Below are positions 21,715 through 26,045 of a stretch of DNA of 64,000 bases, one piece after another (position 1 is the first letter of the stretch; every line of letters begins with the position of its first letter). This DNA is from Utricularia gibba (lineage: Eukaryota > Streptophyta > Magnoliopsida > Lamiales > Lentibulariaceae). Location: NCBI GenBank assembly GCA_002189035.1, contig NEEC01000007.1, positions 2,294,001-2,358,000 on the forward strand, read 5' to 3'. The notes under the pieces were generated by a model, which saw only the letters and a program-made list of their open reading frames with translations, made no database searches and was not told the origin of the DNA. The position numbers and the translations under genes are program-made.

Positions 21715-21849
21715 GTGATATCAACCTCATGTCCGAGCCTCGAATTTGCAAAACAACGTGCTGATGATCTAGAGAAGATATACTTCGAAGTACTTGAATC
21801 CCAAGATAGAAAGCGTCAGAAGTTAGAGGAAACTGAAATAAGAAATAAG
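21715..21849 (+). pseudogene. Short coding-like fragment, unknown origin
   Basis: About 45 residues with ordinary plant codon use (SLEFAKQRADDLEKIYFEVL, then ESQDRKRQKLEE) form an amphipathic, likely coiled-coil helix. The frame then runs into AT-rich sequence (YTTYFINSIYEYW) that looks noncoding. No start codon or second exon was found. I do not recognise the parent gene. Confidence 0.3.
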
Positions 21850-22843
21850 GATATAGTCTACACCACTTATTTTATAAATTCTATTTATGAATATTGGATA
21901 AGTAAAACTCAAATAATTAGTTGTGGTATTTTCAACTTATTATTTATTTATGAAGAAACAAATGTATTTCGATTTTGTACAGATTTGATTTATTGGAAGC
22001 AAATACATTTGTTAGAATAAGTTAGTGACTTATTTTGATAAGTAAGTTAATGTAACTTATTAAATAAGTTGAGTTTTAAATATAAATATAGGCAAATTTA
22101 AAATAAATAAAAGTTAAGTATAAATTTGAGTAAAAATTACAAATAAATAAAAATCATGTGGTTATGTCATAAGTAATTTTAACGTATATTTAAAGTAATA
22201 AGTTGAAAAATAAGTCGTGCAGACTATATACTAATAGTTCATCAACTTCAAGAATCTATGAATAGGTACCCACAAGTCTTGTAAACTATCATTGTACTTG
22301 TTTCTTCTACAACCAAGTTCGTTTTCATCATGGTATGGAATATTGTCATACGTTTGTAGACATATATACACTATGTGCTGTTTAGTTAATAGTCAACCTT
22401 ATATCCTTCATAAATAAAAAAAATCTAAGGTAGCTCTATATACAATAAAAAAAAACTTATAGAAAAACAGCTCGATTATTAAAATATTTATATAAATGAT
22501 TTGAAGCAAGAACAACAAGGCTATTATTCATTATTTTTGATATATATCCCCATTCCCTTGATGGTGATTTTTGAGTTGATTTCATTACTTTTTAAAGAAC
22601 TTCTTGATATTAATAAAATATTTTTTGGGTAATTATTTGATTCACATGATATTAAAAAGACAAATCAATTGATTGTAGATTTAATTGGCACACAAATTAA
22701 TCCCCAACAAAAGAAAAGGTCTTCGCGAAATTGAAAAAATAATATTTAGAATTTTCAAGAGGGAGAAGTTTACAATTCTTGCTATGTTGAAAAAAAAAAA
22801 TCAAAGAATGAATTCAGAAGCTGAAAAGATCAGTTTTGATTCC

Positions 22844-24148
22844 TCAGGAGAAGGCGGTTGGCAGGGCTGTGCAGTTGAGAGCTTGGAGGGTGGGGATGAT
22901 GAGGCTTTGCTCGATGCGGACGGCGATCTCCTGTGTGAAGTGAATTCCATCCCAGAACATGTGGCGTTCGGGATGGGAGCATGCGGGCACTCCGGCGCTG
23001 CCGCAGAATCTGTTGCTGCTGTAGTTGTACGCGCCTCCGATCCCGCAGCAGGCTCTCAGGGCGGTGGCTGCATGACCCTCTGTGCACGAATCAATGGTAA
23101 ATAAATGATGAGCATCTCTGCCGACTACAGGTGGAGAATGAATGCGAGGGCTTGCCTTGATTCAATCTGTCGAGGATTTGGAGGAAGCCCTCGTCGAAGG
23201 CGCCGTAGATGAGGGTGACGTTGGGGAACTCCCTGCCCAACTCGTTGATGGCTTGCCGGAGGTAGTTGTTCTTCATGGTGATGAGCCTGTTGACGCTGCT
23301 GAGGCATCCCAGGCGATCGTAGGCGGTGGGGTCGCCGGAGGGCATTGCGGTCAGGATGTAGGGGAAGCAACCCAGAGGGGCGCTGCCCGGGATGACGATG
23401 AGCCTTGCTCCCATCCCGATGAGTTGCTGCAAGTAGGGAGATTATATCAGTATGAAGGAATGGCCACAACTGGTATTTTTTTTGTGACAAAAAGGGGATC
23501 GATTAGTTACCCTGGTGGCCTGGATCTGTTCTCTGGTGATGGGGCCGACGTAAGACTGCGCTTCCTGAAGGGTCTTTCCCTGCGTGAGGGCGTACCCGAT
23601 GTCGTTGGCCTCGAGGTCTCCCAGCAGCACCAGCGAATTGGCGAGCCTGTCGGCGATGCAGTCGGAGGCGTTTGCGCCGCCGCAGACGGACCGGAGGTGG
23701 GTTTGGAACCATTCGAGTTGGGTGGCGAGGGAAGTGGCGTAGCGTGGGATCCGGATGCCTCTCCGCGAGAAGAAGCCGTGGTCCATCACCGGACTCCTGG
23801 CGACCGAGAAGATGACGCCGTTGCTGGAGTTGGCCCTTTCGGAGAGAGAAGGAACGATATCCGGGAAGCCGAAGTCGAAAGCCGCGAAGTCGAAGTCGAC
23901 GAGGCCGTCAGACCATCGCCCGTTGGGGTGCCGGGATACGTCCGCCCGTAGGGTGCACGTGTGGGCGGGAGTGACTCCTGAATGAGGACGGAGTTTCCGA
24001 CGTCGGTGGCGCCGTCCCCGAAGTGGTAGAGGTAGGGAAATGGGCACACGGGATTGCCACCAGTCCGTGAAGAAGCAACCGCAGCGCTACTACAAGCACT
24101 CGCAGCAACGATCGCGAAGAGGAGGAGCTGAGAGGAGAAACCCATCAT
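22844..24148 (-). pseudogene. GDSL esterase/lipase copy 1, frameshifted
   Basis: It has the same structure as the right-hand copy: exons 23511-24148, 23156-23426 and 22844-23079 in mirror positions. One base is missing in the G-run 23925-23928, near residue 75, so translation leaves the frame right after RTYPGTP and stops at 23786. If the base loss is real, only the signal peptide and first block would be made. If it is a base-calling error, this copy encodes the same 381-382 residues as the other. It has a plausible own promoter in the spacer. The other sequence features are described at the right-hand copy. Confidence 0.85.
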
Positions 24149-24226
24149 CACCTGAACTGAACTGATCTGATCTGATCTGCCGTTGGTTGTTGAGCTTGAA
24201 TTATGGAGATGAACTGGGGTGCGTGG

Positions 24227-24235
24227 AATTTATAG
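24227..24235 (-). promoter_or_regulatory. TATA box in the palindrome spacer, reading into copy 1
   Basis: CTATAAATT on the minus strand is followed after about 30 bases by a purine-poor leader and then by CAGATCAGATCAGATCAG before the ATG at 24148. This is a normal TATA-to-ATG arrangement for the left copy. In the other direction the same site reads tttatagta about 30 bases before the ATG of the right copy, so that copy would have almost no leader. The flanking bases 24223-24243 are themselves a 7-bp-stem inverted repeat (gtggaat ... attccac). Confidence 0.5.
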
Positions 24236-24261
24236 TATTCCACAGAAAGGCTTTTCCTCGG

Positions 24262-25570
24262 ATGATGATGGGTTTCTCCTCTCAGCTCCTCCTCTTCGCG
24301 ATCGTTGCTGCGAGTGCTTGTAGTAGCGCTGCGGTTGCTTCTTCACGGACTGGTGGCAATCCCGTGTGCCCATTTCCCTACCTCTACCACTTCGGGGACG
24401 GCGCCACCGACGTCGGAAACTCCGTCCTCATTCAGGAGTCACTCCCGCCCACACGTGCACCCTACGGGCGGACGTATCCCGGCACCCCCAACGGGCGATG
24501 GTCTGACGGCCTCGTCGACTTCGACTTCGCGGCTTTCGACTTCGGCTTCCCGGATATCGTTCCTTCTCTCTCCGAAAGGGCCAACTCCAGCAACGGCGTC
24601 ATCTTCTCGGTCGCCAGGAGTCCGGTGATGGACCACGGCTTCTTCTCGCGGAGAGGCATCCGGATCCCACGCTACGCCACTTCCCTCGCCACCCAACTCG
24701 AATGGTTCCAAACCCACCTCCGGTCCGTCTGCGGCGGCGCAAACGCCTCCGACTGCATCGCCGACAGGCTCGCCAATTCGCTGGTGCTGCTGGGAGACCT
24801 CGAGGCCAACGACATCGGGTACGCCCTCACGCAGGGAAAGACCCTTCAGGAAGCGCAGTCTTACGTCGGCCCCATCACCAGAGAACAGATCCAGGCCACC
24901 AGGGTAACTAATCGATCCCCTTTTTGTCACAAAAAAAATACCAGTTGTGGCCATTCCTTCATACTGATATAATCTCCCTACTTGCAGCAACTCATCGGGA
25001 TGGGAGCAAGGCTCATCGTCATCCCGGGCAGCGCCCCTCTGGGTTGCTTCCCCTACATCCTGACCGCAATGCCCTCCGGCGACCCCACCGCCTACGATCG
25101 CCTGGGATGCCTCAGCAGCGTCAACAGGCTCATCACCATGAAGAACAACTACCTCCGGCAAGCCATCAACGAGTTGGGCAGGGAGTTCCCCAACGTCACC
25201 CTCATCTACGGCGCCTTCGACGAGGGCTTCCTCCAAATCCTCGACAGATTGAATCAAGGCAAGCCCTCGCATTCATTCTCCACCTGTAGTCGGCAGAGAT
25301 GCTCATCATTTATTTACCATTGATTCGTGCACAGAGGGTCATGCAGCCACCGCCCTGAGAGCCTGCTGCGGGATCGGAGGCGCGTACAACTACAGCAGCA
25401 ACAGATTCTGCGGCAGCGCCGGAGTGCCCGCATGCTCCCATCCCGAACGCCACATGTTCTGGGATGGAATTCACTTCACACAGGAGATCGCCGTCCGCAT
25501 CGAGCAAAGCCTCATCATCCCCACCCTCCAAGCTCTCAACTGCACAGCCCTGCCAACCGCCTTCTCCTGA
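24262..25570 (+). CDS. GDSL esterase/lipase copy 2, intact frame, nucleophile Ser replaced by Gly (382 aa)
   Basis: Three exons: 24262-24903, 24988-25258 and 25335-25570. The protein starts with a signal peptide (MMMGFSSQLLLFAIVAASAC), so it should enter the secretory pathway. Block I reads YHFGDGATDVGNS: the catalytic Ser of the usual GDSxxDTGN is Gly 47 (codon GGC). Later blocks are kept: GDLEANDIGYAL with the block III Asn, VIPGSAPLGCFP, and FWDGIHFTQ with the Asp-His pair. The family hydrolyses lipids, cutin monomers or acetylated sugars; without the Ser this protein may be inactive. Intron 2 begins with GC (AAG|GCAAG), a known minor donor type. The first of three tandem ATG codons was taken as start; the left copy aligns only from the second. 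Confidence 0.9.
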
Positions 25571-25859
25571 GGAATCACACCATTGTTTCCTTCTTCTCTT
25601 TAACCATTCTTTCATTAGTTCTAATGTAAAGTGACGTGCTTAATGTCATCCACTGGGAATGCATTCATTCACATGTTTGAGTTGCCCTGTTCCCATTCCA
25701 AACAAACTGTCACAAGACATGTCTAATCCAGGACTAGATCCATAACCCCAAGGAAAAAGATGCACACAAATTCCATCACGAGGGGTAGCAGCAGCAACGA
25801 TGTTCGTACGAAAACTGAAAACGATAAACCAACTGGGAGTTGGGGGCGAACCGGTCGAA

Positions 25860-26045
25860 ATTTAAATACCGATCGAAGGAAGGTGGCCGGCCTCCTCTTC
25901 TTGGGCGGTCGTATGGACCAGGTCTCTCCCTGTAGTTTCTGCCTTCGTATCTCGGAGGTCCACCGGCACTGCCTCGGGCGCCTCCGTCACGGTCGTAACC
26001 CCTCTCCTAGCCATATCCATTCTGTGGGTATCCTTGAAATTCATA
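25860..26045 (-). pseudogene. Arg/Gly/Tyr-rich fragment with an in-frame stop
   Basis: Read leftward, the frame gives YEFQGYPQNGYG, a TAG at 26010-26008, then RGYDRDGGARGSAGGPPRYE and GRNYRERPGPYDRPRRGG. This low-complexity composition is that of RGG/RNA-binding protein tails. It lies just past the stop codon of the aldolase gene, within its likely 3' UTR. No RNA-recognition domain is attached. It may be a decayed gene end or a real exon of a gene I cannot resolve. Confidence 0.4.

Follow-up and report, generated by a model that had tools for sequence, protein, structure and literature searches.

A palindromic pair of GDSL-like genes in Utricularia gibba that is probably kept identical by gene conversion between its arms

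Background

Two neighbouring genes that face apart and are identical along almost their entire length, introns included, raise the question of whether the pair is newly born or is old and has been corrected, one copy against the other, ever since. Such a pair lies in the 64,000-nucleotide stretch of U. gibba DNA analysed here (hereafter the window). The first-pass annotation of this stretch, made from the letters alone, described head-to-head GDSL genes forming a near-perfect palindrome, offered three explanations for their likeness, i.e. a very recent inverted duplication, ongoing gene conversion between the arms and an assembly artefact, and raised a possible role in RNA silencing. To our knowledge, well-described plant nuclear cases of arm-to-arm conversion seem to be few. 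In this paper, we have searched the genome (100.1 Mb in 516 contigs) with the left arm of the palindrome and compared the copies so found, all comparisons being made within one assembly.

Results and discussion

Anatomy of the palindrome

When the window was compared with itself by BLAST, the sole repeat pair was 22837-24150 against 25577-24263 reversed (palindrome A), the alignment of which has 1315 columns, no mismatch and one gap; the described near-perfect palindrome with a 112-bp spacer and one single-base difference is thus confirmed. In the lone difference, a homopolymer has lost 1 nt: the run reads GGGG at 23925-23928 in the left arm and CCCCC at 24485-24489 in the right arm. As controls, two 50-kb stretches from elsewhere in the genome were searched at the same sensitivity and had no repeat of at least 200 bp, and it is because of this 100 kb of repeat-free control sequence that we rule out chance as the source of the palindrome. 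The remainder of the window and of the 28.5-kb region around a second palindrome (B, described below) also contained no repeat of at least 200 bp, all of which is a small sample for judging how prone the genome is to palindromes. The features of the locus are as follows.

22837..24150, minus strand: left arm of palindrome A; GDSL-like gene, coding sequence from about 24148 to 22844, put out of frame by the 1-nt deletion at 23925-23928
24151..24262: spacer, 112 bp, with the 5'UTR and TATA box of the left gene
24263..25577, plus strand: right arm of palindrome A; the same gene with an intact coding sequence, from the ATG at 24262 to the TGA at 25568-25570
24904-24987 and 25259-25334, plus strand: introns of the right-arm gene, the second being GC-AG
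22530..22836: outer flank on the left side, with a homologue on the left side of palindrome B
25578..26035: outer flank on the right side, with a homologue on the right side of palindrome B
25714-26035: 3' fragment of an RRM/zinc-knuckle gene that has a longer counterpart in B
21743..22391: left end of the duplicated block, as fragments 21743-21843 and 22232-22391, which in B are contiguous and lie beside the myosin gene

Each arm of A is one three-exon gene, the introns of which measure 84 and 76 nt, the pair stands head to head and reads outwards, and the arms span almost exactly the distance from the start codon to 7 nt beyond the stop codon. Both introns are present in each arm, as had been stated, and the same three-exon gene indeed occupies each side; what does not hold of the annotated gene pair is that the left reading frame, as assembled, is broken. 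The left and right outer flanks are unrelated in sequence, bar a family 3'UTR motif at 22799 (see below).

A second copy of the palindrome

The search with the left arm returned, on the contig of the window itself, two more sites at a distance of about 486 kb; they are 97% identical to the arm and face apart.

C213:1827260-1830378: palindrome B, its left and right outer flanks each homologous to those of A

The outer breakpoints of A and B fall at the same base on both sides, 7 nt past the stop codon. Beyond them, the flanks of the two loci are 87-91% identical left to left and 85-93% identical right to right, while left and right 3' flanks are only about 40% alike and essentially unalignable. 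As both the breakpoints and the flanking homology are shared on both sides, the palindrome predates the duplication that gave rise to A and B, and the neutral divergence between the two loci amounts to about 6% (dS 0.060, introns about 0.06, flanks somewhat higher).

The neighbours of B carry motifs for a myosin, a class 3 lipase and an RRM/zinc-knuckle protein; around A there are short pieces matching the myosin side and the 3' part of the RRM gene, with no homology beyond, and Pfam, using short frames, gave no name to the right-hand neighbour exons. Since A carries only truncated pieces of the neighbour genes of B, we infer, from these truncated genes only, that the simplest origin of A is by copying of the B block, the copy having later been shortened. 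An origin of A and B in a whole-genome duplication was rejected, because the homology extends over only a few kb and both loci are on one contig. Between the two left-end fragments of A a dispersed repeat, about 390 bp long, has been inserted; this AT-rich element (21844-22231) has some 30 or more partial or full relatives genome-wide, 71-86% identical.

The 3' ends of the genes bear on the age of the pair itself. A 12-base motif, CATTCTTTSATT, of the form CATTCTTT[C/G]ATT, lies shortly 3' of the stop codon in every member of the gene subfamily but the C3 copy, which has a close variant. It occurs at exactly two sites in the window, 25605 (plus strand) and 22799 (minus strand), one per stop codon, and in about 250 kb of examined sequence it was seen nowhere but at subfamily 3' ends. 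The remaining 3'UTR sequence of the two genes of A is unalignable, and the coding parts between are identical. That the motif follows both stop codons while the 3'UTRs have diverged beyond alignment indicates that the pair is old and that both 3'UTRs descend from the family 3'UTR. The motif is possibly a 3'-end or RNA-stability element.

Evidence for arm-to-arm gene conversion

If the arms had evolved independently since the duplication, each arm of A should be closest to the corresponding arm of B. The opposite was found: at 26 sites the two arms of A agree with each other and differ from the two arms of B, there is no site at which the left arms agree against the right arms, and there is none with the crosswise pattern; two locus-specific arm indels, of 3 and 5 nt, also separate A from B. 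The 3' flanks group strictly by side, opposite to the arms. In AU tests, both alternative topologies were rejected for the arms at p ~1e-64; for the flanks the rejected topologies had p values of at most 2e-4, and the arm topology was among those rejected (p 1.6e-4).

Within A, there are 0 differences in about 437 neutral sites, for which about 26 would be expected without homogenisation since the A/B split (Poisson P ~4e-12), and the last full homogenisation of A falls within roughly the most recent 11% of the time since that split (upper 95% limit). The arms of B have no substitution in their first 987 bp, and all 9 of their differences lie in the last 333 bp (P ~4e-6), a clustering as expected of the edge of a conversion tract. 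The homogenised tract is made up of the coding region and its introns; identity ends 7 nt beyond the stop codon, and the flanks are independent. The paralogues are thus tightly linked and inverted, copies within a locus are each other's closest relatives, and the split against which this is seen is a duplication of the locus rather than a speciation, which is the pattern of concerted evolution.

As the arms group by locus and the flanks by side, on a palindrome older than the A/B split, it is very probable that the arms of A and of B have been kept identical by arm-to-arm gene conversion in an old head-to-head GDSL-like pair, each locus having been homogenised separately after the block was copied. 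Of the three origins first offered, it is therefore ongoing gene conversion that the site patterns and the switch of topology at the second palindrome, about 486 kb away, support. An old head-to-head pair would have had its copies kept alike by conversion between the palindrome arms, and homogenisation would end where the copies lose homology, just past the stop codon and near the start codon; a block of a few kb holding the palindrome would later have been duplicated to another site of the same contig or chromosome arm, after which A and B would each have been homogenised on its own. The underlying process may be double-strand-break repair in which the other arm, or the sister arm, serves as the template. 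The exact identity of the arms of A could partly reflect consensus polishing, though B kept its 9 differences. With regard to GC-biased conversion, the A/B differences that could be polarised with three agreeing outgroups numbered only five, two W>S and three S>W.

Synonymous divergence within such pairs is useless for dating, for this pair looks newborn and yet predates a duplication of about 6% divergence. Because one genome holds the palindrome twice, arm conversion can be read without a second species, and the two loci thus form a compact natural experiment.

The encoded protein and selection on it

The right-arm protein is intact, with 380 residues from the third ATG, and matches Pfam Lipase_GDSL (PF00657) over residues 40-353 with 54.3 bits against a cut-off of 23.6. 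In block I the catalytic Ser is replaced by Gly (HFGDG), the readable copies having FGDGATDVGN, compared with FGDSLSDIGN in 5xtu; the GDS serine nucleophile of an active SGNH/GDSL hydrolase was found in none of the readable copies. The block V Asp-His is kept in these copies, as WDGIH or WDGYH. Two more distant genes, C414 and C508, likewise have Gly for Ser, the motif of C508 reading FGDGVTDVGN, and keep the block V residues.

The coding sequences of A and B differ by 5 nonsynonymous and 15 synonymous changes (P 3e-6; dN/dS 0.097), and are clearly under purifying selection. Since it is the coding sequence that is constrained, a protein function is favoured over a role of the RNA, and we infer that selection acts on the former and not on the latter. 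In Arabidopsis, the GDSL protein ERMO3/MVP1/GOLD36 has Gly (G59) where the catalytic Ser would stand, and it has been described as a pseudoenzyme; its function is unaffected when the Ser is restored, and it apparently works as a protein partner (PMC3498303). The subfamily resembles ERMO3/MVP1/GOLD36 in being of the GDSL family with Gly at the catalytic Ser position, and differs in that it may have lost the Ser independently. By this analogy, the Ser-less proteins of the subfamily probably act by binding. A conserved GDSL lineage that has no catalytic Ser and is expanding in palindromes merits functional interest.

The spacer, the promoter and alternative explanations

Once inverted, the spacer of A aligns along its full length with the right-hand half of the B spacer, at 94.6% identity; in direct orientation the match is limited to 49 bp that are common to both halves of the B spacer. 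Judged from the sequence, this inversion relative to B is a trace of recombination between the arms. It may have arisen by a crossing over between the arms that inverted the spacer, a deletion following afterwards, or by a conversion tract that extended into the promoter. The TATA box of the left gene of A (24230-24235, minus strand) belongs to a promoter that in B serves the right gene, and the right gene of A has had its 5'UTR and core promoter deleted, both of which its counterpart in B retains. The picture of two equal genes accordingly needs amending.

This arrangement bears on the proposal that A is a hairpin-RNA locus of the soybean I locus type, in which read-through of both arms gives a long dsRNA and hence small RNAs that silence paralogues. 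The DNA could form such a hairpin, having perfect arms of 1.3 kb, a short loop and paralogues elsewhere that are 76-79% identical. However, the sole intact core promoter is that in the spacer, and it faces outwards. The transcripts of two genes that are both read away from the spacer have the same sense and do not pair with each other, so that a hairpin would need read-through from outside. A dN/dS of 0.10 in the coding sequence also speaks against it, and the identity of the arms is accounted for by conversion, in B too. The silencing role is thus not favoured by what can be read in the DNA, and we regard it as improbable. U. gibba has a truncated DCL3 and few 24-nt small RNAs (PMC8333044).

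The broken frame of the left gene has to be seen beside the other copies. Both of the located differences between the arms of another subfamily palindrome (C244, described below) are, like the lone difference in A, 1-nt deletions in G/C runs, and a similar one is found in the left arm of B. Such deletions are a signature of long-read consensus error, and those in A, C244 and B look like residual error of this kind; because all three show them, the left-gene frameshift of A is doubted. Should it be genuine, one side of locus A would have a promoter but no intact gene, and the other side an intact gene but no promoter. The same deletions are what could be cited for an assembly artefact in a wider sense, i.e. 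that the palindrome arose from, or was made perfect by, fold-back (missed-adaptor) reads or consensus error. Against this, the outer flanks differ between left and right, which a fold-back read would not yield; two diverged loci have the same anatomy, with spacers that differ between them; the arms of B retain clustered substitutions; and the entire palindrome is less than 3 kb, which is short for long reads. Symmetry running to the end of a read or template, with no independent copy, was not found at A, and an artefact is very unlikely.

The least credible explanation is a very recent inverted duplication in A that would make conversion unnecessary: the arms are identical but for 1 nt, as it would predict, but the same palindrome with the same outer breakpoints is present in B, which has diverged from A by 6-9% in its flanks and neutral sites, so that the structure, with both breakpoints, predates a duplication of about 6% neutral divergence, and two independent events would need identical breakpoints on both sides together with the same outer flanks.

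Relation to known systems

Palindromes A and B are a clean plant case of an already known kind, that of the Drosophila Hsp70 (Hsp70Aa/Ab, Ba/Bb) and Amylase (Amy-p/Amy-d) genes, palindromic pairs in which the coding region is homogenised and the flanks are independent (PMC3924832). They share with these the linked mirror-image protein genes, copies that are closer within a locus than orthologous copies are, and homogenisation confined to the coding region. They differ in being found in a plant, in having introns that are homogenised as well, in resting on a locus duplicated within one genome rather than on a cross-species comparison, in arms nearly without substitution, and in the inversion of the spacer between loci.

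The palindromes on the W chromosome of Salix purpurea were called the first seen on a plant sex chromosome (PMC7023750). There, as in those of the mammalian Y and X (PMC3723533, PMC8981503), conversion was shown by arms that are alike and lineages that are different, and more than one palindrome shares arms, as in the present case. Those palindromes have arms of about 20 kb and more and lie on sex chromosomes, whereas ours have arms of 1.3 kb with one gene each and show no sign of a sex chromosome. The IAN (AIG1-like) family of Arabidopsis likewise offers tandem duplicates in a plant that stand head to head and have palindromic sequence in the interval between them; they are presented as a mechanism of origin, apparently without a description of homogenised 1.3-kb arms (PMC12845241). 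The soybean I locus (CHS1-3-4) similarly consists of a plant enzyme gene repeated in inverted orientation, to which genes at other sites are related; it differs in that siRNAs and silencing were demonstrated there (PMC3804491).

Other copies of the subfamily

Close copies of the subfamily number 13 (two in A, two in B, five in C244, three in C451 and one in C3), and 10 of the 13 lie within four separate palindromes, two of which are additional to A and B.

C244:1903255-1919898: palindrome with 5.35-kb arms, 99.94% identical; nested, with a head-to-head GDSL pair in each arm
C451:5638375-5663974: palindrome with 11.3-kb arms, 99.97% identical, and a 3-kb spacer

Four of the C244 copies are in the palindrome and one truncated copy is alongside; of those in C451, two are in the palindrome and one lies 34 kb away. 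The head-to-head copies of C244 have a patchy identity: their exons differ at few sites and their first introns strongly, a pattern that partial conversion would fit as well. Given that so many of the copies lie in palindromes and that the coding region is just what the conversion tract of the window covers, one may ask whether the palindromic layout itself is maintained because it allows the copies of a Ser-less GDSL family to be repaired and kept identical, in a plant genome without a sex chromosome; we hold this to be a tentative and rather unlikely reading.

The copies of C213 and C244 have a GC3 of 0.78-0.80, those of C451 and C3 one of 0.67-0.70; GC3 was ruled out as a tracker of palindromes, since the C451 copies, with their low GC3, are also in a palindrome. 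The C451 palindrome also holds, as judged by eye, gag-like retrotransposon reading frames, and part of another GDSL-like frame. The second intron of the subfamily (e.g. 25259-25334) is GC-AG in the C213, C451 and C3 copies and GT-AG in the C244 copies.
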